Assembly: GCF_014267175.1 (NCBI RefSeq)
Contig: NZ_JACMTR010000002.1
Location: 4,737,501 to 4,801,500 of the forward strand
DNA length: 64,000 nucleotides
From: Pseudonocardia sp. C8
GTDB taxonomy: Bacteria; Actinomycetota; Actinomycetes; Mycobacteriales; Pseudonocardiaceae
Reading direction: 5' to 3'
Numbering within the stretch: the stretch's first letter is position 1; every line of letters begins with the position of its first letter. Shown here one piece after another: positions 5,373-17,316 of the stretch. A program made the position numbers and the translations under genes. The notes beneath the pieces were generated by a model that worked only from the letters and a program-made list of their open reading frames with translations, was not told the DNA's origin and ran no database searches.

Positions 5373-5474
5373 CCGGCCCCGCGATCGCGCCTCGTTCGTC
5401 CGGAACGGACGCCTCGGCCGGACGGATCGGGCGCCCGCGGTTGAGTTCTGATCGACCGGGTCGGGTGTCCCTCC

Positions 5475-5766
5475 TCAGGCGGCTGCGGTGGTCCGCCCGG
5501 GCGGGAGCAGGGCATCGAGGATGGGTGCCGGGTCGAGCGGGTCGCCGTACCAGGCCGGGGTGAGGGTGGTGCGGTCGATCCGGAGGCCGGCCTGGGTGTT
5601 CGACTCGACCATCTGCCCGGCGTCCCCGGTGAGCGGTCGCCCGGTCGCGGGCACCGGCGTGCCGTCCGGGCGATGGAACTCCCATCTCCCGCCCCCGCGA
5701 TGGCGGATCAGGTAGCCGTGGTCATGGACCAGGCGGTGATGGTGGCTGCACAGCAGGACGAGGTTG
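5475..5766 (-). pseudogene. DUF222/HNH endonuclease, C-terminal fragment (displaced by the prophage-like element)
   Basis: This is the 3' part of the gene whose 5' part lies at 15358-16895. It encodes the end of the HNH domain (NLVLLCSHHHRLVHDHGYL) and about 70 further residues of typical 13E12-family tail ([20 protein letters not shown]). It has no start codon of its own at the correct place. Upstream of 5766 the frame continues into the inserted element and reads unrelated residues. Joined to the other fragment across TTG at 5764-5766, it completes a 610-codon frame including the stop, without any shift. Confidence 0.9.
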
Positions 5767-5793
5767 CAAGTACCTTCGCAGTGGTTCCTACGG
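5739..5793. other. left attachment junction of the element (hybrid att site)
   Basis: Host HNH sequence runs up to and including TTG at 5764-5766; element sequence starts at 5767. The same TTG recurs at the other junction, 15355-15357. The element-side arm at 5767-5793 is an imperfect inverted copy of the element-side arm at 15326-15354, the expected shape of a serine-integrase attP site. Confidence 0.8.
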
Positions 5794-5891
5794 GGTGACG
5801 TTGCGGGACATGGCCTTCCACCCGTGAAGGCGGCCCCGGGCGGTGTAGCAGCACCGGCCCCGGGGCCTTGACGGACTCTGGAGGTCCGCCC

Positions 5892-6383
5892 ATGGCCCAG
5901 CTTCTCACTCCCGCACCCGCTGACGACCGGCTGATTGCCCTCGATGCCGTCGCCGCCACCCTCGACCTCACGCCCGCGTGGACTCTGCCCGGGCAGGCCG
6001 CACGGTGGACCGGCGATGGTGTCGACCTGGTCGCCGACGACGACGCCCGCGGCGGGTACGTCCATGTCCTCCGCGACGACGCCGACGCCACGTTCGGCCC
6101 GCACGCCGACCCCGCCGAGATCGCCACTGCGGTCCGCGCGGCCCGGTCCGGCGAGGTGACCGAGGCTGATATCCGCCTGACGGACGTCAGGTCCGGCGGG
6201 CGTTGGCACACCGCCTACAACGAGCCGCACAGCGTCCACGGCCGGTGGCAGAGCCCGCCGACGTGCCACGCCTCCCGCGCCGCCGAGGACCGGATCGGCG
6301 GGGTGACCGCGCTGGCCGGGCCGGGTGCCGCCTCCCACCGGACGTGGACGCTCGCTCCGTGCGACGGGTCGTGCGAGCGATGA
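5892..6383 (+). CDS. element-encoded hypothetical protein (163 aa)
   Basis: I do not recognise this protein. It is soluble and mixed alpha/beta in composition. It has an acidic centre (VDLVADDDARGGYVHVLRDDADATFG) and a C-terminal part with scattered His and Cys. The ATG at 5892 follows GGAGG by 8 bases; an in-frame TTG at 5868 lacks such a site. A GC-rich hairpin (about 5832-5867) lies between the junction and this gene and could be a leader structure. Its stop overlaps the next start (ATGA). Its place at the end opposite the integrase matches the small divergent genes of phiRv1-type elements. Confidence 0.65.
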   Translation: MAQLLTPAPADDRLIALDAVAATLDLTPAWTLPGQAARWTGDGVDLVADDDARGGYVHVLRDDADATFGPHADPAEIATAVRAARSGEVTEADIRLTDVRSGGRWHTAYNEPHSVHGRWQSPPTCHASRAAEDRIGGVTALAGPGAASHRTWTLAPCDGSCER

Positions 6384-6574
6384 GCGCCGGACGGCACACC
6401 GGGCGGCGGGCGTGGATCCTGGCCCGGCTCCCGCTCGGCCGTCTGCGGGTGACCGCGTGCGGGCTCTGCGCGGCCCTGGTCGCCGCCGAGCACACCGACG
6501 CGCACGACCGCTACCACCGGGCCGTGGTCGCCGCGCTCAGCGGATCCGACCGGCCCTGCGAACAGCAGGACTGA
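6380..6574 (+). CDS. small element-encoded protein (64 aa)
   Basis: The function is unknown. The ATG at 6380 overlaps the TGA of the preceding gene, so translation is probably coupled. The 64-residue product is basic at its N-terminus, with a CGLC pair in the middle (residues about 27-30) and one further Cys near the end. A strong inverted repeat follows 22 bases after the stop. Confidence 0.55.
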   Translation: MSAGRHTGRRAWILARLPLGRLRVTACGLCAALVAAEHTDAHDRYHRAVVAALSGSDRPCEQQD

Positions 6575-6595
6575 ACGGCCGTTCCCGCACGACCG

Positions 6596-6627
6596 ACGCC
6601 CCGGCGCTGATCTCAGCGCCGGGGCGT
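6596..6627. terminator. bidirectional hairpin terminator between convergent genes
   Basis: ACGCCCCGGCGCTGA at 6596-6610 is followed after TC by its exact reverse complement at 6613-6627. It sits between the convergent stops at 6574 and 6639. A mixed AT stretch (TGATTATTAG) lies just beyond on the right. This suits termination from both sides. Confidence 0.75.
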
Positions 6628-6638
6628 TCTGGTGATTA

Positions 6639-7316
6639 TTAGTCGTCGCCGGGGCCGTTGTTCGCGCGGCTCGATCGGAGGTCGTCGATCAACGGGTTGA
6701 GGACGGCCGCTGCGCGCTCCAGCTCGGGGAGGTTGGCTTCCGCGATCGTGGCGGCGTTCGCGGTGAACCGGTCGTCGCCGTGTAGCTTGCTCAGCCGGTT
6801 GCTCACCCGAATCAGATCGCGGTGCAGGGCCAGAAACTGCTGCGGGAGCGGAGAACGCCTCATCGACGTGGGCATGGTCGGCGAGGTGTAGGTCTTGCCA
6901 TCCAGGCCGGTGATCTCGGCGGGCTGCCGTTCGCCTCGGTGCTCGCGCGGGCTGGGTGCAGTGCTCTCCGGCGAATCAGGTGATCCAGATGGATCACCTG
7001 ATGCGGACACGTCCCGTTGCACGGTGCCGTAGCCCTGGCCGGTGGCGCTGGCGATGGCGCGGACGGACATGCCGTGCTCGCGCATGGAGGCCACCACTTC
7101 GCGGCGCTCCTCGCGTGGGAGCTTGAGTCGCGACGTACCGAACTCGCGGTCGCAGTACTCGTCCCAGCTCAAGTAGCCCAGCGCGGCCCAGGCGCGGGAG
7201 ACGTGGGCCTGCCTGATCAGTTCCCAAGCGCCCTCGACCGTGATCTTGATTCGGTCGGTGAGCTGCCGCGCTTGCTCGGGGGTGGCCTCGGCATCGTCGG
7301 TCGCGATCTCGCGCAC
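6639..7316 (-). CDS. helix-turn-helix protein of the element
   Basis: This is a probable DNA-binding protein of about 225 residues. A central segment (LPREERREVVASMREHGMSVRAIASATGQGYGTVQRDV) reads as a helix-turn-helix with recognition helix near GTVQRDV. It is followed by a Ser/Pro linker, the ITGLDGKTYTS motif seen in many actinobacterial phage regulators, and a C-terminal helical region. The GTG at 7316 starts 4 bases after the stop of the upstream small gene. An in-frame GTG at 7364 would overlap that gene by 44 bases and has no better ribosome site. Its role could be repressor, partition or copy control; the sequence does not decide. Confidence 0.7.
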   Translation of the reverse strand: MREIATDDAEATPEQARQLTDRIKITVEGAWELIRQAHVSRAWAALGYLSWDEYCDREFGTSRLKLPREERREVVASMREHGMSVRAIASATGQGYGTVQRDVSASGDPSGSPDSPESTAPSPREHRGERQPAEITGLDGKTYTSPTMPTSMRRSPLPQQFLALHRDLIRVSNRLSKLHGDDRFTANAATIAEANLPELERAAAVLNPLIDDLRSSRANNGPGDD

Positions 7317-7320
7317 GCCG

Positions 7321-7584
7321 TCAGCCCAACTCTCGCTCGATACCGTCGAGATCCATGCCCTCACCGCGGGCGAACGCCGAGACCGCAGCCTGCCCGCCGC
7401 GGGGGCCGACCTTGTTGCCGATCGTGTCGTCGACCAGGACGAAGAGCCCGTAGTCCTCGGCCCGCCGGTCGCGGCGACGGGACTTGACCAGCATCAGGCC
7501 TTGCCGCTGCGCGGCCCGCCGCAGCCGGTTCTCCCGGATCTTGTCGTCTCGCCCGATCGAGGGTTGCGATGTACGCGAAGTCAT
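7321..7584 (-). CDS. small basic protein common in actinobacterial mobile elements
   Basis: The 87-residue product starts at ATG 7584. It contains a basic helix (IRENRLRRAAQRQGLMLVKS) followed by RRRDRRAEDYGLFVLVD. I recall this pattern as a frequent but uncharacterised small protein in actinobacterial integrative elements and plasmids. It is probably nucleic-acid binding (inference from charge). It is followed closely by the helix-turn-helix gene, so the two likely form one transcript starting in the divergent region to its right. Confidence 0.65.
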   Translation of the reverse strand: MTSRTSQPSIGRDDKIRENRLRRAAQRQGLMLVKSRRRDRRAEDYGLFVLVDDTIGNKVGPRGGQAAVSAFARGEGMDLDGIERELG

Positions 7585-7993
7585 GCTTGGGAAGGTACGG
7601 AGAGTGATGCTTTAGTGACTAGTCGCCCATAAGTGCGGCACCACGAGTAGCTCGTGACACGATCAGGTGACCCGATCTCCTATCTGGGACGAATCCGAGA
7701 GGCAGAGCGTGCCGGGTCGCCGCGGGCCCGGGGAGGGGGTGGGACCCCGGGGGTCTCGGACCTCTAGGTCGTCGGCCTCGGGTCAGGCCCGTAGGCCCGG
7801 GTGCGGGGGCGTGGGCGTCGGGCTCGGGCCAGGCTGCGGCGGGATTTGCACAAGGCGGGGAAGGCGTCCCCCGCCCTCATCTCCGGGGGGATGATTGAAG
7901 CGCCGCTGGTGATGGGGACTCTCGGTCCACAGTTCTGATGAGCTGCTCAGGTCCGCCGTAACGGGTAGTGCGCGCTACGCCGATTGGCAGGTC
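7585..7993. other. divergent regulatory region of the element with a G-rich tract
   Basis: These 409 non-coding bases lie between the minus-strand regulator pair and the plus-strand membrane gene. Bases about 7720-7900 carry repeated runs of G (for example GGGCCCGGGGAGGGGG near 7728), enough for G-quadruplex potential. They also hold short inverted repeats such as ACCCCGGGGGT. The flanks at 7590-7680 and 7905-7990 are notably AT-richer than the rest of the window, as expected of promoters. It could be the switch region or a replication origin for the element. I cannot tell which. Confidence 0.4.
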
Positions 7994-8269
7994 ATGACGT
8001 ACCCCTCTGCTGCCAAGGCTACTGGCCCTGGCCTCGCCATCGCTGCCTGGACTATTGGCTCACTCGCGATCCTTACCACCCTCTACTGGCGGGCAGGTCT
8101 CGGGATCATTCCCCTCGTGATGTTGGTGCTCTCGCTCGGATTGACCGTGGCGGCTCGTGCTGCGTCGTCGCCAAGCCGCCATCGCACGGCAGCTGCGGTC
8201 ACGACGGGGGTCGCCGTCGGGCTGAACGTCCTGTTCATCGTGCTGTCGATCTTGGTTCCGACCAGCTAA
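7994..8269 (+). CDS. small membrane protein of the element
   Basis: The 91-residue protein has three hydrophobic segments: about residues 13-30, 34-54 and 70-88. It resembles no family I can name. Its base composition is visibly less GC-rich than the chromosomal genes, with many A/T-ending codons, which suggests recent acquisition. It starts at ATG 7994 and converges on the capsid gene, with stops 7 bases apart. Possible roles include superinfection exclusion or an anchor protein, but nothing in the sequence proves this. Confidence 0.6.
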   Translation: MTYPSAAKATGPGLAIAAWTIGSLAILTTLYWRAGLGIIPLVMLVLSLGLTVAARAASSPSRHRTAAAVTTGVAVGLNVLFIVLSILVPTS

Positions 8270-8276
8270 GCCTTCA

Positions 8277-9125
8277 TCAGACGGCCGGGCTGTAGGTGAT
8301 GTGCACGACGGATTCCGGGTGGATGAACCCGAACCCGCCGCGGAGCCTGCTACGGACCGCGACCCGGTCGCTGCTGAAGTAGGGGCTGGCGTCGGCGGTG
8401 ACCTCGGCGTCGAGGGTGCGCAGGATGGTGAAGATCCGGCGTGCGTCCACGCCCCAGACCTGATCGGCGGGCACGTCCGGGGTGACGATGATCGGACGGC
8501 CCTCGGCGATCCTCCGGCTCGGCGCGGCCGGGTCGAGCTGGAGCAGGCCGCGGTTGCTGCCGTCGCCGTCCTTGAGTCCGGCCAGGCGCAGCGCCATCGA
8601 GCTACTGCACAGCCAGGCGGTGATGTTGGCGCCGACGTTCTCGGCGGCGGCGGCCGCGCGGGCGAAGGCCTCCAGGTCGACCAGGGCGCCGCCGACGATC
8701 TCCTGATAGCCGACCCCGGCCAGCCCGGTCGGGGTGTTGGGCGCGGTGCCATCGCCGACGAACGCGGTGTCGAGCTGGCGGGCGGTGTCGCGGGTCAACC
8801 CATCGCCGAGCACCCCGGCGGCGACGTCGTCGGAGTCCTCCAGCAGCTCGGAGCTGACGACGGTCAGCCCGGCTACCTTCGACGGAACCACGACCACCTC
8901 GTCCAGCGCGGCATCCGAAACGGGGATTTCGCCACCTTCGGCGACCCAGCCCGCCGAGGGGTCGGCGGTGATCCTGGGGGCTCGCCAGGTCGGGCCCTTG
9001 AGCCGGACCACGGTGGCGACGGCCGGGTCGGTGGCAACCGCGCGGGCGATGACCGGCTCGACGAACAGGGCGGAGACCTGCTCCGGCGAGAAGATCGCCG
9101 AGCCGTTTCCGGTGGTCATGACCAT
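8277..9125 (-). CDS. phage major capsid protein (HK97-like)
   Basis: This is the structural shell protein of a tailed-phage-type capsid. The 282-residue product shows the usual HK97-family features of small actinobacterial capsids. These are an N-terminal segment (FSPEQVSALFVEPVIARAVA), a central VAEGGEIPVSD strand region of the kind that forms the E-loop/P-domain, a conserved serine/threonine-rich stretch, and a C-terminal VRSRLRGGFGFIHPESVVHITY strand. It has no N-terminal protease or delta domain. The ATG at 9125 has GGAG 7 bases upstream. No prohead protease gene adjoins it, so maturation would need a helper or may not be proteolytic. Confidence 0.85.
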   Translation of the reverse strand: MVMTTGNGSAIFSPEQVSALFVEPVIARAVATDPAVATVVRLKGPTWRAPRITADPSAGWVAEGGEIPVSDAALDEVVVVPSKVAGLTVVSSELLEDSDDVAAGVLGDGLTRDTARQLDTAFVGDGTAPNTPTGLAGVGYQEIVGGALVDLEAFARAAAAAENVGANITAWLCSSSMALRLAGLKDGDGSNRGLLQLDPAAPSRRIAEGRPIIVTPDVPADQVWGVDARRIFTILRTLDAEVTADASPYFSSDRVAVRSRLRGGFGFIHPESVVHITYSPAV

Positions 9126-9280
9126 GTGAACACTCCAGGGTGGACGCGCGCCGATGCTCGCGTGTCGTCTGCTGAGGATTCACGCGGCGGGATCCACCCG
9201 TCTCCGCGCGGCCCACCCGGGGCGGCGTGCCGGACCGGCGGGCTGACCTGAGCCGGACGCCGGTCCGTGCACTGTGGAGG

Positions 9281-9787
9281 CTACCGGGTGCGCAAGGCCT
9301 CGGACCAGGACGCGCCCGACGGCCGGGCACCGGAGGGGTAGGAGCCTTGCCCGATACCGGCGCGGACCTCGGCCGACGACGGGGAACGTCGGAGCCCGGG
9401 CCGGGCACCGACCAGGGTCGCGGCCGCGGTGCGGATCCGGTCGGGGTCCGGGTGCCCGTCGTCGTCGATCAGGTCGTGCAGCTCGGCCTTGCCGACGTCG
9501 AACAGGTCGGAGCCGACCTCCAGGTGCTCGGCGGCGACCCGCTCGGCTTCCCGGCGCTGGAGAGCGGTCACCTGCTCGGCCAGCCGGTCGCGCTCGGCCT
9601 CAGCCTCACGGAGCCGTCGCCGGTACCCCGCGGCCTCGGCGTTGCCGGACTCCTCCGTGGCCTCAGTGCCGTTCTCCCGTCCGCCGGTGCCCTCGCCCTC
9701 CGGCGGGGCGGTGCGGGCCGCAGCGGCGCTTTCAGGGGCCTCTGAGTGGTCGGTGGCGGTGTTCGGGTCGCGGGTCTCGGTGCTCAC
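9281..9787 (-). CDS. putative capsid scaffolding protein
   Basis: The 168-residue protein lies just upstream of the capsid gene. It has the layout of small phage scaffolds: a disordered acidic Glu/Gly/Ala-rich N-terminal half, a short coiled coil (residues about 55-85, GYRRRLREAEAERDRLAEQ), and a C-terminal domain with IDDDGHPDPDRIRTAAATL. Scaffold function is inferred from position and this layout. The GTG at 9787 follows GAGGAGG and overlaps the upstream stop (GTGA). Bases 9126-9280 between it and the capsid gene are non-coding. Confidence 0.65.
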   Translation of the reverse strand: MSTETRDPNTATDHSEAPESAAAARTAPPEGEGTGGRENGTEATEESGNAEAAGYRRRLREAEAERDRLAEQVTALQRREAERVAAEHLEVGSDLFDVGKAELHDLIDDDGHPDPDRIRTAAATLVGARPGLRRSPSSAEVRAGIGQGSYPSGARPSGASWSEALRTR

Positions 9788-10113
9788 GGTGCCTCCTCGG
9801 GGGCCGGGTCGAGGGAGATCGGGTTGCCGACCTCGTCCAGAAAGGACCGGCGGATGATGCCGGGGCTCACCCTGGTGACGATGGTGGTGTGCGGGGTGGC
9901 CGTGATGCCGAGCGCGGCCAGCAACGCGGCCTCGGTGTCGGTGGTCGCCCGGGGCTCCCACCCGATCGGCCACACGTAGTCGGCATCGGCGACCCGCCGG
10001 GCATCCTCGGCGGCCAGCAGCGGGCACCCCTGATCATGGGCGAACCGCAACGGGTCCACCGCCGGGTGCGGGTCGAGCCGTTGACCGCCGCACGCCGGGC
10101 AGTGGGCGGTCAT
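9784..10113 (-). CDS. small protein with an N-terminal CxxC pair
   Basis: The function is unknown. The 109-residue product begins MTAHCPACGGQRLDPH, suggesting a zinc-binding knuckle. It continues with a short alpha/beta region containing ADADYVWPIGWEPR. It overlaps its neighbours on both sides by 4 bases (ATGA/GTGA), so it belongs to one translationally coupled run from the primase to the scaffold gene. It is probably an accessory morphogenesis or replication protein of the element (inference from position). Confidence 0.6.
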   Translation of the reverse strand: MTAHCPACGGQRLDPHPAVDPLRFAHDQGCPLLAAEDARRVADADYVWPIGWEPRATTDTEAALLAALGITATPHTTIVTRVSPGIIRRSFLDEVGNPISLDPAPEEAP

Positions 10114-10394
10114 CGGTTCACCTCCCGCTCGGCGACATCCGCAGCGTGGATCATGTGCGCGCTCACCGCGCGGGCGGTGGCGACGTCAAACCGGACCGTG
10201 CCGTGCTCGGACACGACCTCGGCCGGAATCGCCAGCTCGACCCCGGCGAGGGTGTCGACGCCGTCCGGGCCGATGGCGGTCGTGCCGATCGCGGCCACTC
10301 CGATCAGGGAACGGTCACCGGCACCGGTGTGCGGGGCGATGCCCCACATCTCGATCCGGCCCTCGGCATCGGTGGTTCCGTCGTTGGTGCTCAT
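10110..10394 (-). CDS. small element-encoded protein (94 aa)
   Basis: I do not recognise this protein. The ATG at 10394 overlaps the upstream stop (ATGA), which decides the start against an in-frame upstream codon. The product is acidic, with a possible beta-sheet core (MWGIAPHTGAG, LIGVAAIGTTAIG) and a C-terminal helix. It contains no Cys and no membrane segment. Confidence 0.55.
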   Translation of the reverse strand: MSTNDGTTDAEGRIEMWGIAPHTGAGDRSLIGVAAIGTTAIGPDGVDTLAGVELAIPAEVVSEHGTVRFDVATARAVSAHMIHAADVAEREVNR

Positions 10395-10714
10395 GCGAGG
10401 CGGCTCCATTCGCCAGGGGTGATACGGACGGCCACGGCGCGGCCGTCGCGGTTGTGCCGCACCTCAGTGCCGACCTCCACGTCCCACCCGTTGTGGGTGA
10501 GCCAGTCCAGCTCGGTCAGATCATCGGGCCGCAGCCGGGACGGCTCGGCGACATAGACCCACTGACTCGGGAGATCCGAGCGGGGCACCCGCCACGGGTC
10601 GACCAGCCAGTCCACGCTGGACTCGGGGAACCGGTCGCGAAGCGTGCACAGCGGGCCGGTATCGGTCGGCCAGCCGTGCTCGGCCGGAGTGGCGCTGGTG
10701 GTGTCGGTGGTCAT
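10391..10714 (-). CDS. small element-encoded protein (107 aa)
   Basis: The function is unknown. The ATG at 10714 is preceded by GGAGAAC and lies 2 bases after the stop of the primase gene, so the two are probably coupled. The product is Trp-rich for its size, with six Trp residues including WLVDPWR and LDWLTHNGWDVEV. It ends in a short beta-rich segment. Confidence 0.55.
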   Translation of the reverse strand: MTTDTTSATPAEHGWPTDTGPLCTLRDRFPESSVDWLVDPWRVPRSDLPSQWVYVAEPSRLRPDDLTELDWLTHNGWDVEVGTEVRHNRDGRAVAVRITPGEWSRLA

Positions 10715-10716
10715 GA

Positions 10717-12834
10717 TCAGTTCTCCTCTCGGTAGGGCGAATCGGTGCCGGGCGGGTAGGCGCAGGACCGGCACCGCCCGTTGATCAGTGGGTGGTCGCT
10801 GGGATGACGGCAGCGGGAGCAGCAGGGCCTATCCGCGCCTGGATCCTGGGGAGAGTCCATGGAACGGCGCGAATGACCTGATTGAGCGTGACCTGCGGAA
10901 ACGCTCCAATCATCCGCGCCAGGCTCGTCATCGGCGCCAGTGCGTTCGCCCTGGTCGGAGCCAATGCCGCCAGTCATGCCACCCTGGGGGCTCTCCCTGG
11001 CGCGGCGGGGATGATCCGAGTCGATCGACCAGATAGCTCCCTGCTGGAATCCGCGGCGCCTGGACCGGACTCCGGCTCGGTGGCGGACCCGCTGCAACGT
11101 CCGCTCCGGGATGTCGACCTTCTGGGCTGCCTCGCGGATGTCCTGGAACGGCGCGGTCCCGCCCTTGTCGTTCAGGTACTTGTTCAGCCAGTCCACGGCG
11201 TGGTCGCGTTCGGCGCGCTCGTCGGGATCCCCGCTGGTCTCCTTGGCGTCGCGCAGCAGGTCTTCCACCGATCGCGACGAGGGGCCGGTGAAGTCGAACC
11301 GGGCCGTCGCCGCGGTGCCCTTGGGGGTGGGGATGTCGACCGGGGTCAGGGTGTAGCTCAGCGATGGCAGATCATCGCGACCGAGACTGTTCTTGGTCTG
11401 GGTCATCACCCGCCCGTCGTCGTCCCGGGCGAATCCGAGCACGGCCCGCGCCACGTTCTTGAACGCGCCGGAGGCGGTGATCAGGTTGGACACGTCGGTA
11501 CCGGAGGACTTGTTGAAGTGCGCGATCCCCAGGATCACGGCGCCGGTGCGGTCGGCCAGGGCGGTCAGCGGGTCAAGCGCGGTCCGGACCTCCCGTTCCC
11601 GATGGGTGTCGATCTTCTGCGCGACCGCGGACATCAACGGGTCCACCATGGTCGCCGCCACCTCGTGGCGGATGATCTCGGACTCGAGAAGGTCATTGTC
11701 GTGCGGCAGCGACAGGGCCCCGTCGGCGCCGGACTCGGTGATCACGTCGAACCGGCCGATCATCGACAGGTCAGCCCCGGCGGCGATCAGCCGCGGAACG
11801 ATCGTGTGCTTCCACGAGTCCTCGACGGTCACGTAGAGCACCCGGCGCGGGGTGCCGTGGAACGCGCCGGGCAGCGTGCCCCGGCTGATCTGTGCGGCCA
11901 TCCAGATCGCGAACGAGGATTTCCCGGTGCCCTCCCGCCCGGCCGCGATGACCTGCGACCCGGCCGGAACTCGCCCGTGCCCGTCTTCGGTTGTCCAGGC
12001 CCACACGACCGGCTCCGGCTCGATCTGTGAGGCCCAGGTGATCCGAGACTGGCGGCCGGTCGCCACCGTCTCGACGTCGGCCAGGTCCTCGACCCCGTAT
12101 CCGGCGTGGACGTGGTCGGTCAGGTCGGCGCCCTTGTGGCCGGGCACCGGCTCGACCACCCGCACCGACCGAGCCCGGCCGGACAGGGCCGCACGGACCC
12201 GTTCGGCATGGGCCCGGCCCGGATCGTCTCGGTCGCGCACGACCAGCACATCCGCCCCGACGAGCGCCGCCGTGTGCTCGGCCTTCCAGCCTCCGGAGGA
12301 TCCGCCGACACTGCACGTGGCAGTGACGCCGTACTCGCGGGCGGTCTCGACGTCGCGTTCACCCTCGACGACGAGGATCTGCCGACCGTCCGCCGCGGCG
12401 GCGAGCACCTCCGGCAGCCGGTAGAGCGTCGTGTTCAGCTCCGGGCAGCCGCCGAACTCGTAGTGCTCGCCCACCCGGTGCACCTGGTGGAACTTCTTGC
12501 CCGCCCGCCGGACGACCTTGGCGAACTCGGTGCCATCGGCGCGCTGGTAGACGTACTCGGCGCTGCCCGCGGGCGGGGCCCGGTGCGCGCCGTCGCCGTT
12601 CCGGCTCGGCGGTGCGGGGTCGGCGAACAGATCGGCCATCCGCAGCCCCAGGGCGCCGACGACGTCGCCGGTCTCGCATCCGGCGTGACACTTCAGCCCG
12701 ACGCCACGGTCGTCCTCAGTGATCGACAGCGAGGGGGTCCTGTCGTCATGGCCGGGACACTGCGCCCGGCCGTTGTTGACGATGAACCCGTGGTCCTCCA
12801 GGGCGGCGCGCACCCTGTCGATCGGGGCACTCAT
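10717..12834 (-). CDS. primase-helicase replication protein of the element
   Basis: This is probably a replication protein that combines primer synthesis with a RecA-like helicase ATPase, as in many phages and integrative elements. In the 705-residue product I see four parts. First is a CHC2-like zinc motif (C26, H29, C49, C53 in QCPGHDDRTPSLS and KCHAGC). Second is a TOPRIM region (ILVVEGERD with E158; VVRDRDD). Third is a Walker A motif GREGTGKSS at about 299-307, with a Walker B-like region near TMVDPLMS. Fourth is a C-terminal winged-helix-like segment (ERTLQRVRHRAGV) and a final Cys-rich motif (CCSRCRHP, CRSC). The ATG at 12834 overlaps the preceding stop. Confidence 0.8.
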   Translation of the reverse strand: MSAPIDRVRAALEDHGFIVNNGRAQCPGHDDRTPSLSITEDDRGVGLKCHAGCETGDVVGALGLRMADLFADPAPPSRNGDGAHRAPPAGSAEYVYQRADGTEFAKVVRRAGKKFHQVHRVGEHYEFGGCPELNTTLYRLPEVLAAAADGRQILVVEGERDVETAREYGVTATCSVGGSSGGWKAEHTAALVGADVLVVRDRDDPGRAHAERVRAALSGRARSVRVVEPVPGHKGADLTDHVHAGYGVEDLADVETVATGRQSRITWASQIEPEPVVWAWTTEDGHGRVPAGSQVIAAGREGTGKSSFAIWMAAQISRGTLPGAFHGTPRRVLYVTVEDSWKHTIVPRLIAAGADLSMIGRFDVITESGADGALSLPHDNDLLESEIIRHEVAATMVDPLMSAVAQKIDTHREREVRTALDPLTALADRTGAVILGIAHFNKSSGTDVSNLITASGAFKNVARAVLGFARDDDGRVMTQTKNSLGRDDLPSLSYTLTPVDIPTPKGTAATARFDFTGPSSRSVEDLLRDAKETSGDPDERAERDHAVDWLNKYLNDKGGTAPFQDIREAAQKVDIPERTLQRVRHRAGVRSRRRGFQQGAIWSIDSDHPRRARESPQGGMTGGIGSDQGERTGADDEPGADDWSVSAGHAQSGHSRRSMDSPQDPGADRPCCSRCRHPSDHPLINGRCRSCAYPPGTDSPYREEN

Positions 12835-13160
12835 CGGCGGGCCCCTACGCGCTTCGGGCTCCGCGCTCGGCTCCGCCGACGACGCTGCTGCGTCGGGACC
12901 GCAGCGACCGGCGGCCGGGACCGCCCGATGTTCACGGCGACGTCGCCGTGCTCGTCGAGGAACCGGATGTGCGGCAGAACGGGCGTCGTCGCGGCAGAAG
13001 GCGACTCCTCCGCCGGGACGGCATCCACGCTTCGGCACCGGCCACAGAGGACTCCGGGCGCGCCGAGCCAGGACCACGCCTGGCTCCCGCAGCGCGGGCA
13101 TCGACTAGTGGGAAGCGACCGCGGCGCGAGGGTCTCGCCGTGGCCGTCGTGGTCATGCAT
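12831..13160 (-). CDS. small zinc-ribbon protein of the element
   Basis: The 109-residue product carries CPRCGSQAWSWLGAPGVLCGRC, the spacing of a zinc ribbon. This is followed by a short folded segment (PHIRFLDEHGDVAVNIG) and a strongly basic tail. It begins at ATG 13160 after AGGAG. Its TGA overlaps the primase start, so it may act with the primase. The function is otherwise unknown. Confidence 0.6.
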   Translation of the reverse strand: MHDHDGHGETLAPRSLPTSRCPRCGSQAWSWLGAPGVLCGRCRSVDAVPAEESPSAATTPVLPHIRFLDEHGDVAVNIGRSRPPVAAVPTQQRRRRSRARSPKRVGARR

Positions 13161-13240
13161 GATTGACGTCAGCTCCTATCGGGCTGACGCCCTCGCGCGG
13201 GATGGTCGGGCACCACGTACGCGCGGGGGCGTCGTGGTGT

Positions 13241-13492
13241 CTACAGCGGGCGGTGAAGCGACGGCAGTAGCCCGCGAAGTCGCTCGATCTGCTCGGCGGT
13301 CGGTGCGGGCGCGGACTCGACGACCTCGCGGATGTGGTCGGCGAGCCGGTCCACGGCGAACCTGCGCCGGTCGTCGTCCACGCTGGGGTCGTCGGGGCCG
13401 CGGTGCCGGGTGCGCGCGGCGAGGGAGGCGCGTTCCCGCCGCTGCTCAGGGGTCAGAGGCGGGCGGCGACGCTGCGTCTCGTTGACGGTCAT
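13241..13492 (-). CDS. small basic helical protein; candidate recombination directionality factor
   Basis: The 83-residue protein starts at ATG 13492. It opens with a basic motif, PPLTPEQRRERASLAARTRHRG, seen in small proteins next to integrases in actinobacterial elements. It continues with two amphipathic helices (RFAVDRLADHIREVV; AEQIERLRGLLPSL). It is the first small gene after the integrase, about where phiRv1 keeps its excision factor Rv1584c. The assignment as excision factor rests on position and size only. The 297 bases between it and the integrase hold no supported gene. Confidence 0.5.
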   Translation of the reverse strand: MTVNETQRRRPPLTPEQRRERASLAARTRHRGPDDPSVDDDRRRFAVDRLADHIREVVESAPAPTAEQIERLRGLLPSLHRPL

Positions 13493-13789
13493 GGGCGGTG
13501 ACTCCGCTGGGTGCAGTGCCCAGCGGGCCGCGTTCGAGGAGGCGACCCCCCGGGCACGGACGGCCTGGGGATCACGCTCGACGTCCCGCGGCACCCGGCC
13601 GTCGGACCTCCGGCAGCGGGTCCGCCCGGGACCCCTACTGCCCTCCGTCGTTCACCGCGCCCGCGGAGCGTGGACCCGAGGGGCCACCACCCGCACCGGC
13701 GTTTCAGTCCGCCTGAGACTCGGCGCGGGCCGCTTCGTGATCACGGCTAGCGAGTGCGCTAACGGTAGCAACGTGCTACCTGCTGCGCA

Positions 13790-15322
13790 CTACTTCGCCG
13801 CGTCGGTGCTGCGCAACCAGTCGATCCGCTCGACCACTGGCATAGTCGCCCCGCCGCCGCGGCGGCCCTCCGGGCGCCGGTGCGCGACCAGCGTGCCGAG
13901 CAGGTCCGGGGCCAGCAGTATCCGAGCCACCGCCCGGCGAGTCGACATCGGAGACTTGCCCCACGCTGCCGCGACGTTCTTGCCAGGCGTGATCAACCCG
14001 CGCAGCGCCGACGGGGTCTGTAGCTCTCGCTCCCGAGCTTCGGCCGCCCGCAGCCGCTCCAGCAGTTGCGGCTCGGTGCGGGCGGCCAGGGTCAGCGAGA
14101 CCGATCCATCGGCCACGGCGTCGGCCAGCTCATCCAGGCGGGTCCGCAGTGAGGCGATCTCGGCACGCACATTCTCAATCTCGGCGTTCTGATCGTCATT
14201 GCCCGCGGCGAGCGCCTCATGGATGTCGGCGCGGGCGAGCCACTTCAGCATGGCCTTCTCGGCGATCGAGTCCAGCTCATCGGCGTCGACTCGCACGCAC
14301 CCGCGCTCGTGGCACTGGTACTCCCGTCTCCGGGCTCGGTTGGTCGCGGCCAGTCGGGAGTCACACTCGGCGCACCGGGCGATCATGGAGAGCAGATGGA
14401 CACCGCGGCCGGGCCGAGTGGTTCGCCGGGTCGGGTTGGTCAGGATGCGCTGTACCGCGTAGTAGTCGGCCTCGGACACGATGCCGGGCCAGGCTCCAGG
14501 GACGATGCGGGCGTCGGTGCTGAGCGCCGCGGGCCGCTGGGTGCCGCGCACCCCGTTCCGTCCCGGGTCGTGCACCCGCAGCCCTGCATAGGTGGGGTTG
14601 AGCAGCAGCGACCGCAGGTGCGCTCCAGAGAACGGTCCGCCGGATCGCTTCTGAATGCCGCGCTCGGCGAGGTCGGCGGTGATCGACCGCAGCGAGTGCC
14701 CCTTGATCACCCGGTCGAACAGCTCGGCGACCACCGGCGCCTCGTCGGGGTGCGGTTCCTGGCCGATGTAGCGCCGGGTGTGTCCGTCGTAGGTGCGGCG
14801 GTACCCGTATGCGACCGGACCGTGCGGCTTGCCGTCCGCGGCGTTCGCGGCGGCGGCCCGCTTCGCCCGCAGGGAGACCTTGGACGACTCGTACTCGCTG
14901 TCCACGGCGTCCTCCTGGAGGGTGCGCCGATCGCGGCCGTTGGTCGGATCGTAGGTGCGCCCGTGCGTGGTGACATGGATGGCAACGCCGCGCTCGGCGC
15001 AGATGTCGATCAGGTCGCACCACTCGCCCGCCCGCCGGGACCCGCGCGAGGACTCCCAGATGATCAGCACCGAGGCACCGAACCGTCCGGAGTCAAGATC
15101 GGCCATCAGCTCCGCGAATCCGTCCCGGACCTTCTTCGAGTAGCGCGACGCGCTCACCGACTCGTCCCGGTACGGCGTGCCCAGCGTCCAGCCCTCGCGC
15201 TCGGCGGTGGCGGCGTTGTCGTCGTGCTGCTCGTCCAGGGACCGCGCCCGCCCGGACCGGTCGAGGCTGACCCGCAGGTACTCCCGCGCCGTAGGGGTCG
15301 TGCCGTTGCGCGTCGTCGTCAT
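13790..15322 (-). CDS. large serine recombinase (integrase)
   Basis: This enzyme integrates and excises the element by site-specific recombination. The 510-residue protein begins with the resolvase-type catalytic domain. The motif YLRVSLDRSG contains the nucleophile Ser19 with Arg17, and the catalytic arginine region is WESSRGSRR. The recombinase domain follows (KPHGPVAYGYRR to RSLLLNPTYAGLRVHD). A zinc ribbon (CAECDSRL, CHERGC) is next, then a coiled coil at about 395-450 typical of this family. It is complete, with no frameshift. The ATG at 15322 lies only 33 bases inside the right junction, the usual place for an integrase beside its att site. Confidence 0.95.
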   Translation of the reverse strand: MTTTRNGTTPTAREYLRVSLDRSGRARSLDEQHDDNAATAEREGWTLGTPYRDESVSASRYSKKVRDGFAELMADLDSGRFGASVLIIWESSRGSRRAGEWCDLIDICAERGVAIHVTTHGRTYDPTNGRDRRTLQEDAVDSEYESSKVSLRAKRAAAANAADGKPHGPVAYGYRRTYDGHTRRYIGQEPHPDEAPVVAELFDRVIKGHSLRSITADLAERGIQKRSGGPFSGAHLRSLLLNPTYAGLRVHDPGRNGVRGTQRPAALSTDARIVPGAWPGIVSEADYYAVQRILTNPTRRTTRPGRGVHLLSMIARCAECDSRLAATNRARRREYQCHERGCVRVDADELDSIAEKAMLKWLARADIHEALAAGNDDQNAEIENVRAEIASLRTRLDELADAVADGSVSLTLAARTEPQLLERLRAAEARERELQTPSALRGLITPGKNVAAAWGKSPMSTRRAVARILLAPDLLGTLVAHRRPEGRRGGGATMPVVERIDWLRSTDAAK

Positions 15323-15325
15323 GAC

Positions 15326-15380
15326 CCGTACGGTACCAATAGGAAGGCTGATGCTTGTCGATGTCCGTGGGGCCGCCGCG
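15326..15380. other. right attachment junction of the element (hybrid att site)
   Basis: Element sequence ends with TTG at 15355-15357 and host HNH sequence follows from 15358. The element-side arm 15326-15354 contains CCGTACGGTACC and GGAAGG. It pairs imperfectly with the inverted arm at the left junction (GGAACC and GAAGGTA read on the minus strand). The midpoint of the rejoined arms falls on the TT of the shared TTG. Confidence 0.8.
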
Positions 15381-16895
15381 CAGCCAGCTCCGGACGTGGT
15401 GTGCATGCAGGTGGCGGGTACGGCCGCAGCCGGGGAACCGGCAGCCCCCGCCGTCGGCGGTGTCGCGGGCGGTGAGTGCGGCGATCTGGGCGGGCGAGGC
15501 CAGGCGACGGGAACGCCCCAGGTAGAGCCGGTTCGTCCGGCGGTCGTCGAGCAGGGCCTGGGCGCGGGCGTCGCAGGCCAGCCGCTCCGCGGTCGGAGCG
15601 GGTATCGCGGGGCCGCCGGCGAGCTGCGCCGTTCCGGTGGCGGCGTCCAGATGGACGATCACCTGCGCGGCTCCCCGTTCGACGGTCGGGCCGTCGGCCG
15701 CGTCCTGCCCCCGGACGAGGGTCAGCAACGCGTCGGCGCGGCGGGCCGCCGTCCGGTCCGCCACGCTGCCGGGCTCCTGCTCGAGCTCCCGGTGTCGGCG
15801 GGCCGCCCCGTACAGGCCGTCGACCGGGGTGCAGTCCGTCTCGCGGACCGCGTCCGGCCCCGGGAGCAGCGCGTCGATGGCCGCGATCAGCACCGCGCCG
15901 TCGTCCGGCGTCAACCGCCCGCGCAGGACGAGTGAGCCGTCGGCGTCGTGGTACCAGCTCACGCCGCGGCGGGCCGCGGAACCCGCAGGCGGGGTGCTCC
16001 GGCGGCGCACGGCCCGGACCACGGTCTCGACGTGGCTGGCCGTGCCGGAGAGGGCCAGGTCCAGGAGCACCTGCTCGGCGACCTCGGGCTCGGCCACGCC
16101 GTGCACGGCCGTTCCGGTGTGCGGGTCCGTCGAGCCGTCGGGGGTCGTGTCGTGGCCGGCCCGGGTGGAGCCGTCGGCCGCCGCGCCGTCGCCGGTCGCC
16201 GTGACGCGTGCGGTCGTGCCCGCCGCCCCGCCGGTCGCCTGGGCGCTGCCGGTCGAGCGGCAGGCGCTCGCGGTGTCCTGGCCGGTCGGAGTGCTGTCCT
16301 CGGCCGTGGGGTCGCAGTGGGCCGTGCGCCCGACCCCGGTACCGCTCTCCCCGGTCGCGGAGGCAGGAGTGAACGCACCACCGGCGGTGGTTCCCGGTAC
16401 CTCATCGGCTGCGTCGACGGTTCCGTCATCGGCTGCGTCATCGGCTGGGTCATCGATACTGCCGGGCGCACCGGATCCGCCGGTCTCGGCGTGCGCGGCC
16501 ACGACATCAGTGCCGTCCGCACCTGCGGTTGCCGCCGCGATCCGGGCCAGGACCGAACTGTCCGACCCGGTCACCCTGGTGATCGCCCGGACCTTCGAGT
16601 AGGAGATCCGCCCGGCTGCGAACGCGGCGGTGACACGGGGCAGGTTCTCCAGGGCGTGGGCCACCCGCAGATGCTCGGTCGCGGTGCGCAGGCTCATCCC
16701 CGCCCGCCAGGACAGCCAGTGCGCGCAGGACCGGATACCGACTCCGCTCCAGCCGCCGCGCCGGTCGAACTCGGCGAGCAGCTGCAGGAATCGGCACTCG
16801 GCGGCGGCGATGTGCCCCGCCAGGCCGAGCAGTTCCGACTCCAGGTCGGGCAGGCTCAGGGCCGGTAGCGGGACGGGCTCGGTCGTGATGGACAT
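15358..16895 (-). pseudogene. DUF222/HNH endonuclease (13E12 family), N-terminal part interrupted by the element
   Basis: The intact 5' part encodes about 512 residues from ATG 16895. It holds the DUF222 domain (SLPDLESELLGLAGHIAAAE to RAITRVTGS), an Ala/Thr/Gly-rich low-complexity insert at about 155-290, more DUF222-type sequence, and the first half of the HNH nuclease domain (CRFPGCGRTRHLHAHH, then SWLRGGPTDI). The frame leaves host sequence inside the codon after PTDI and reads element sequence to a stop at 15093, so any product would be truncated in the active site. Adding 5475-5766 restores PTDIDNLVLLCSHHH and a protein of 609 residues. DUF222/HNH genes are multicopy in many actinobacteria; their cellular role is not settled. 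Confidence 0.9.
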
Positions 16896-17316
16896 CGGAC
16901 ACTCCCGGATTTCGAACTGATGTTCCCATGCGGGAGGATGGCAGGCAGGTCCGACGTTTTTCGGCCCGCGAGCCCCGGGCGGGCCCCGTCGGGCGTTCCG
17001 CGGAATGCCGGAACGAGCCGCGTCCACGCACGGCTCACCGGCTTCACGCACGTCTCACCGCGTTCCGCGGAACGCACGGACAACCGGACCGGAACCGCAC
17101 CGGCGGGGTATCGCTTCACGCCGGCCCGGCCGAGCGCGCGAGACGGCCGGCGCGTCGAGAGCGCCGGTACCGCCGTCAGGCCGAGCGCGGCGATGCCCGC
17201 GCCCACGCGCCATCGGGGCGGCCGCGGCGCCCACCCGGGGACGCGGCGCGGACCCGGGGACGCGGCGCGGGCCGGGCTGACGGTGGCCGGGCGGGTCCCG
17301 TCCCCGAGCCGGGGAT
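16896..17316. repeat. intergenic region with two copies of a 16-bp palindrome
   Basis: These 421 non-coding bases lie between the HNH gene start and the stop of the PatB-type gene. GCGTTCCGCGGAACGC occurs perfectly at 17060-17075, and with one change (GCGTTCCGCGGAATGC) at 16993-17008. The same perfect palindrome appears twice more at 20506-20521 and 20637-20652, beyond the two genes that follow. The rest is GC-rich with short GGGGACGCGGCGCGG-type repeats near 17235-17270. I see no gene in it. Confidence 0.7.

Follow-up and report, generated by a model that had tools for sequence, protein, structure and literature searches.

A probable capsid-carrying satellite element at the HNH asparagine codon of a DUF222 gene in Pseudonocardia sp. 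C8

Introduction

What kind of mobile DNA has split a DUF222/HNH (13E12-family) gene in Pseudonocardia sp. C8, and why is it found in a gene of this family? Here we analyse a stretch of 64,000 nucleotides from that genome (contig NZ_JACMTR010000002.1; "the window" below, with its own numbering), in which an inserted element of 9,591 bp occupies positions 5767-15357 on the minus strand, inside such a gene. The element is very probably a capsid-carrying satellite resembling the phage-inducible chromosomal islands (PICIs), whose serine integrase would have joined the phage attachment site (attP) to the bacterial one (attB) at the asparagine (Asn) codon of the HNH motif, by an AA/TT crossover. A wider comparison suggests that several serine-integrase lineages have landed repeatedly in DUF222/HNH genes, a family present in many copies.

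phiRv1, an element of 9.3 kb with the core GGTTGGCCGTGG (PMC3986857), resides in a REP13E12 repeat (PMC9317374), and REP13E12, HNH and DUF222 sequences have been grouped among repetitive elements (PMC10589994). For phiMmcs_2, which has an integrase of the phiRv1 type, two HNH genes are named, and the accessible part of the same report draws no conclusion from them that we could find (PMC3986857). Candidate PICIs have been described as mycobacterial regions with an integration gene and a capsid gene, to which phiRv1 and phiRv2 correspond, while serine-integrase attachment sites are considered hard to predict, their common cores being short (PMC10654092). We claim no priority for DUF222/HNH genes as a general target, of which the accessible parts of PMC9317374, PMC4015280, PMC3783163, PMC10654092, PMC2884959, PMC11530663, PMC5311408, PMC4748531, PMC11449866, PMC10589994 and PMC3986857 contain no statement.

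The interrupted gene and the crossover site

TTG stands at both 5764-5766 and 15355-15357, and nothing longer is common to the two junctions in register. Joining 5766 to 15358 yields a single minus-strand frame of 610 codons, the last of them a stop after 609 aa; it begins with an ATG at 16895, ends with the stop codon at 5475-5477 and reads GGPTDI-D-N-LVLLCSHHH across the cut. The cut falls inside the Asn codon, whose residue we take, from the alignment and from the general features of HNH nucleases, to be the Asn of the HNH motif; comparison of the junctions indicates that no host bases were removed. The gene parts and junctions are as follows.

15355..16895, minus: N-terminal part of the host gene in the joined frame, codons 1-513 plus AA of the Asn codon (PF02720, E=4.6e-26)
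5475..5765, minus: C-terminal part of the host gene in the joined frame (NLVLLCSHHH..., second half of the HNH motif, stop)
15333..15380, minus: integrase-side junction, N-terminal host half plus element half-site, crossover AA at 15355-15356 (dyad test)
5742..5790, minus: distal junction, element half-site plus C-terminal host half, crossover AA at 5764-5765 (dyad test)

Homologues in the genus read through the cut as the joined frame does, for example RGGPTDIDNLVLLCSFHH, so that the join is what the family leads one to expect. A strict pattern found 7 of 19 fetched genus loci intact across the cut, and further intact ones were present in a collection of HNH windows. The C-terminal host part had no Pfam match on its own and was similar by tblastn to 2 of 7 fetched homologues. 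One intact homologue (L229) has an HNH match (PF01844) in the corresponding stretch, and is unmatched by DUF222 at E<=0.05 in the Pfam scan despite 64% identity to the N-terminal host half. Among 33 distinct HNH windows from fetched loci the residue at the Asn position is Asn in 27, Lys in three and Asp in three, a count biased towards Asn, since the profile used to collect the windows was itself derived from genes with Asn.

The attP of a serine integrase is expected to form an inverted repeat about its 2-bp crossover. With the element ends put together, 77 centres were tested by comparing 22 positions, with 20,000 shuffles as reference. The best centre was AA (TT on the plus strand), at which 14 of 22 positions match, a score reached in 4 of the 20,000 shuffles. 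This AA opens the Asn codon AAC and lies at 15356-15355 and 5765-5764 on the minus strand. When the core was not fixed and any shared dinucleotide was allowed, the AA pair again came first of 383 in the window (14 matches; the next, close by, had 13). The same test on two other elements, L028 and L033, described below, also placed the best centre on AA of this codon, as high in 3 and 2 of 20,000 shuffles, respectively. With the dyad centred there, the core is best read as AA/TT, and TTG as AA/TT followed by a chance G. The predicted attB pattern, searched with up to three mismatches, has no match in the organism's own genome.

A preliminary description of this DNA had proposed an insertion without loss into a DUF222/HNH gene, a 5766|15358 join restoring 610 codons, and TTG as the sole duplication. 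All of this holds, AA/TT being the better definition of the core, and the predicted join agrees across the cut with intact homologues at other genomic places.

Gene content of the element

The open reading frames (ORFs) of the element, listed from the integrase end, are the following.

13790..15322, minus: large serine integrase, 510 aa (PF00239, PF07508; phrog_95, E=8e-80; zinc ribbon PF13408 under cut-off)
13241..13594, minus: small ORF beside the integrase, possible directionality factor by position
12831..13160, minus: small ORF (under-cut-off match to PF24451, a family of unknown function, E=0.002)
10717..12834, minus: primase-helicase (AAA_25 PF13481, E=5.6e-22; phrog_10729, E=1.8e-54; Toprim_3 just under cut-off)
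10391..10774, minus: ORF, no family match
10110..10409, minus: ORF, no family match
9784..10113, minus: ORF, no family match
9281..9790, minus: probable capsid scaffold, from its place before the capsid gene (phrog_15186, function unknown, E=0.0017)
8277..9125, minus: HK97-type major capsid protein (PF05065, E=1.4e-23; phrog_10, E=6e-27; TIGR01554 over cut-off)
7994..8269, plus: small hydrophobic ORF, membrane-like by eye, no family match
7321..7584, minus: ORF with a relative in viral contig L084 (tblastn, 46% over 78 aa)
6639..7364, minus: helix-turn-helix protein (phrog_29861, E=9e-18; HTH_38 under cut-off, E=0.0012; a relative in L034)
5868..6383, plus: ORF near the distal end, no match for the part 5892-6383

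The Resolvase and Recombinase domains of the integrase (PF00239, PF07508) and the HK97 capsid bear out the earlier description of a small, phage-like element with a serine integrase. Among the element ORFs scanned, several small ones being without family, there was no match to a terminase, portal or tail protein, and none to an FtsK-like translocase or a relaxase. The scaffold-like ORF has no Pfam or NCBIfam match and resembles the ORF preceding the capsid gene of the mycobacterial element L251 (35% over 97 aa, E=0.001). The candidate directionality factor matches no family in Pfam, phrog, NCBIfam or PADLOC-type scans, and a 26-aa stretch of it recurs in the Haloechinothrix element L028 (61.5%, tblastn). 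PADLOC gave a weak DnaG-like match, to the primase, as its sole hit on the element.

The Asn codon is hit elsewhere

Using a hidden Markov model built from family genes (the DUF222/HNH profile) together with inspection of junctions, we found the Asn codon, here called site A, interrupted at 16 loci including the window, 13 of which show one end only. Both ends are seen in L028 (Haloechinothrix alba, NZ_FZNW01000007.1) and L033 (Actinoplanes solisilvae, NZ_RJAC01000002.1). The L028 element, of about 9.5 kb, has an integrase 58.5% identical to that of the window, lies at the same codon on the same side and in the same orientation, and likewise carries a capsid and a helicase; it differs in having a tape-measure gene and a capsid whose best family is phrog_2263 and whose similarity to the window capsid is limited to an 82-aa stretch. 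The L033 integrase is 49.5% identical and uses the same codon, whereas the element lies in the opposite orientation in its gene, measures 7.8 kb and encodes a Rep-like protein. The remaining site-A loci comprise a Pseudonocardiales metagenome-assembled genome (MAG; L029, one end, opposite orientation), an Actinomycetospora MAG (L030), the IMG/VR contigs L106, L157 and L158, and eight mycobacterial loci (L210, L211, L213, L215, L216, L217, L219, L220).

A DUF222 fragment lies 5' of the integrase at 6 of 73 loci of the window integrase's kin and at 3 of 4 in the L106 group. It does so at 10 of 30 best-scoring mycobacterial loci (L163-L192), which are the best-scoring genomes of a mycobacterial scan and not a random sample, and at 16 of 30 hand-picked ones (L194-L223), a figure that is not a rate, these loci having been chosen partly for a common frame length. 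As a control, such a fragment lies 3' of the integrase in 0 of the same 137 loci. These counts exclude L027, L100-L105, L107-L112, L114-L119 and L140-L155; among the excluded rows a 5' fragment occurs only in L140, L143 and L144, which we take to be the same genomes as L029, L028 and L030, the matches being equal. No integrase was obtained from L160-L162.

Four of the six kin loci (L028, L029, L030, L033) are cut at the Asn codon and the other two (L034, L099) elsewhere in DUF222. The fragments of these two (L034:9116-11461 and L099:3-143) end within the DUF222 domain, not HNH, and that of L099 starts near a contig end. Some targets outside DUF222 resemble, by eye, ComEC or AMP-ligase genes.

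For the integrase trees, 171 loci were kept and 163 rows written, the window included; the larger tree holds 144 rows and the smaller 61. Both trees require a minimum of two changes for site A, either two gains or one gain and one loss, and we conclude that integrases of at least two separated groups use the Asn codon.

Downstream of one mycobacterial site-A integrase, at L244:10684-13425, a 913-aa subtilase-family protein and an FtsK-like protein are encoded; this element, whose far end is out of view, is possibly something other than a capsid satellite.

Further insertion sites in the module

Three more positions of the DUF222/HNH module are in use: site B, at the last HNH histidines (L169, L170, L178, L183, L184, L198, L201, L202, L208, L222, L223 and three copies in the mycobacterial genome G936); site C, immediately ahead of the CxxPxC motif (L172, L173, L180, L206); and site D, in the tail (L177, L179). 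Of 60 mycobacterial loci, 26 lie in DUF222, namely the eight at site A, one cut at another place (L209) and those at sites B, C and D. The three G936 copies (L252-L254) split three different DUF222 genes, each at the corresponding position; starting from the junction, their sequences agree fully for 3,069 bases or more, a stretch that takes in the integrase and runs to the fetched end. Site A in the strict sense is lacking from five of the genes cut at C or D (L206, L251, L180, L173, L179), where Lys or Asp replaces the Asn. With the genus taken as Mycobacterium on the strength of its PPE genes, 137 of 396 sampled genomes have an L106-type integrase at E<=1e-20. Downstream of one mycobacterial site-D integrase, L248:4521-7721 encodes a 1,066-aa SNF2/DEAD-type helicase, possibly a defence gene; the far end of that element is out of view.

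Relatives of the capsid and the integrase

Matches to the capsid at E<=1e-5 were found in 12 of 50,697 phage records, all of them Mycolicibacterium aichiense phages of about 11 kb (34.5-36.5% identity). These are Alyssa1 (OR387110, L159) and 11 others; Alyssa1 also has a serine integrase, but unlike the window element it has annotated terminase, head-tail and tape-measure genes, and its integrase is very distant. That integrase as query returned 2 of 249 in an order-level scan and one locus in viral contigs, and one limited literature search found nothing on M. aichiense phage genomes of about 11 kb. Among 7,993 scored candidates at least 15 proteins, the capsid itself included, match it at E<=1e-8, none of them named phiRv1. 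A capsid-guided scan of viral contigs gave 33 loci, none with DUF222 by profile.

The integrase has at least 702 relatives at E<=1e-20 among 7,996 scored candidates; among the 120 matches listed, the best besides itself (P0002) is 85% identical and the rest 63% or less. Within the genus, 2 of 62 genomes, its own included, have a match at E<=1e-60. For genome contigs a single-sequence query confirmed nothing and an alignment query was used instead, by which 14 of 390 genomes of the family have the integrase at E<=1e-130. The Pseudonocardiales MAG JAHEXI contains three closely similar integrase genes (L031, L038, L077) with a common upstream half-site and differing flanks, and none of the three adjoins a DUF222 gene by profile.

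Comparison with phiRv1

The preliminary description had called the element phiRv1-like and had seen in it the same target choice and a wider element lineage. The two are indeed alike in size, serine integrase, PICI-like naming and DUF222/HNH (13E12) host family; phiRv1 differs in its integrase clade, in a site about 36 residues downstream and in a host subfamily without the HNH Asn. Read in reverse complement, the phiRv1 core encodes HGQP in the DUF222 frame, within the tail motif LDHGQP. The gene split by L251 (...HLDHGQPQT...), in which the tail motif begins 36 residues downstream of the Asn position, contains it exactly; L173 differs from it by one base, and L179 has a copy with two mismatches directly at its integrase junction. 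Lying in the tail motif, the core assigns phiRv1 to site D.

P0142 (469 aa) we take to be the probable phiRv1 integrase, given its length, which is that of Rv1586c, its abundance (180 members on 1,000 contigs, the longest of 4.46 Mb) and its source name, Mycobacterium. It is 28.0% identical to the window integrase over 396 aa and about 70% to those of L177 and L179. In the 61-row tree P0142 groups with L177 and L179 (node value 97), and the window integrase with L028 and L030 (94) inside another clade (100); the 144-row tree, built without P0142, agrees in placing the window integrase in a clade apart from the phiRv1 group. With P0142 as query phiRv1 was not found in viral contigs, and neither an integrase nor DUF222 was present in a stretch of G659 chosen by guess.

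Descent of both elements from a common ancestor, with a conserved choice of 13E12 targets, would fit the shared host gene family, the similar size and the pairing of integrase with capsid, as well as a capsid 40% identical (tblastn) to that of L251, a mycobacterial element with an integrase of the phiRv1 group. The separate integrase clade, the low identity to P0142, the placement of the phiRv1 core at a different site in the gene and the five site-C or site-D genes with Lys or Asp all speak against it, and make such descent highly improbable. One shared lineage is accordingly rejected, integrase clade and insertion site both differing. What survives of "phiRv1-like" is size, general content and host family, not kinship. 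The same target choice gives way to a tail motif in one case and the HNH Asn in the other, and the wider lineage to integrases of separated groups, that of the window falling outside the phiRv1 group on both trees.

The host gene belongs to an accessory, multicopy family

The organism's own genome has 24 DUF222 matches, which we read as about 21 genes. At E<=1e-20 the N-terminal half has relatives in 30 of 62 genus genomes (this one included), and some of these genomes have many. Within 5373-17316 of the window the split gene is flanked by a coiled-coil gene and a malY-like gene. A neighbour search took in 11 other genus genomes in which the malY-like gene is matched at E<=1e-100. In five of these (L263-L267) murJ is followed by the malY-like and then by the coiled-coil gene, with no DUF222 gene between the latter two, and in the other six the coiled-coil gene is not within the 1.5 kb fetched. 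With five relatives lacking it at this locus, the host gene was either gained here or lost there, and is accessory either way. None of the seven best gene homologues shares the window's neighbours, and with the gene absent from the locus in relatives, the comparison with uninterrupted alleles draws on homologues elsewhere. The earlier suggestion that the element exploits a multicopy, dispensable family is thus upheld as repeated targeting by different integrase lineages, though not by one element lineage.

Discussion

An integrase and a capsid within a compact 9,591 bp, and a virion gene set otherwise unmatched, make the element PICI-like in the usage of PMC10654092. That it is a capsid-carrying satellite inserted at the HNH Asn codon is argued for by exact boundaries, the dyad centre of attP, a join that fits the family, the gene content and the recurrence of the site, all read from the sequence. 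The element's own integrase would have made the insertion, and excision would proceed with the directionality factor; the primase-helicase would replicate the element, which would then be packaged in its own small capsid with the terminase, portal and tail of a helper phage.

Several observations weigh against this reading. A circular form, excision and particles are predictions from the sequence. A helper was not identified: the organism's own genome lacks a phrog_9 terminase and hence harbours no helper of that type, in a search that covered this terminase family only. No empty allele of the host gene was found at the same locus. As to targeting, 67 of the 73 loci of window-integrase kin are without DUF222, and the integrases of L214 and L218 are identical over the tree columns to those of L213 and L219, yet by profile adjoin no DUF222 gene; targeting is therefore not absolute, and we regard these two as relaxed or secondary sites. 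The site-A junction of L030, seen at one end, was read by eye through a frameshift. In L028 a second dyad centre scores 13 against 14, and for L250, an element at site B, the dyad test gave no clear result. In L033 the single large ORF that was searched encodes a nicking protein resembling Rep, and no related capsid came up there by tblastn, so same-site elements are not all capsid satellites.

The unmatched terminase, portal and tail could also mean that a full prophage once had packaging and tail genes and later lost them, as viral contig L106, which shares the insertion codon, encodes both a capsid and a terminase large subunit. Such decay is unlikely, though, in an element whose integrase, primase-helicase and capsid frames are open, where no remnants were matched and both half-sites keep a clean dyad, and whose 9.6 kb is near the size of records with related capsids (L159, 11.1 kb; L274, 10.9 kb; L251, about 8.9 kb between host fragments). 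A complete prophage is rejected, terminase, portal and tail genes being unmatched among the element ORFs scanned. The primase-helicase could serve the replication of a plasmid-like element, or one like the actinomycete integrative and conjugative elements (AICEs), that happens to carry a capsid gene, and the Rep-like protein of L033 would suit this. It is very unlikely all the same, given that neither an FtsK-like translocase nor a relaxase was matched and that a scaffold-like ORF precedes the capsid gene, a gene order as in L251. An AICE, or an integrative and conjugative element generally, is rejected for want of a conjugative translocase or relaxase match among the element ORFs scanned.

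The question of why this gene family is hit has a plausible answer. Every Asn codon begins with AA, which would give an integrase crossing over there an invariant dinucleotide inside a conserved stretch of the active site. The Asn codon may have been chosen because active-site codons are conserved, accessory copies are many and the loss of one is tolerated. A more far-reaching idea, which we consider doubtful, is that several integrase lineages converged on these genes as an actinobacteria-wide hub and that the choice of the catalytic Asn is adaptive, beyond the mere conservation of this DNA: insertion would break the catalytic core of a nuclease directed against mobile DNA, or in competition with it, and precise excision would restore the gene. 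If true, the element would switch members of a multicopy nuclease family off in a reversible way.

What was one example, phiRv1 in REP13E12, thereby becomes a countable pattern across several actinobacterial groups, in which different serine-integrase lineages use at least four positions of one short module: the Asn codon, the last HNH histidines, the stretch before CxxPxC and the tail. Split DUF222/HNH genes give a rule for where to search for such elements and predicted attP/attB pairs for new integrases, and the question of why this gene family is chosen becomes directly testable.

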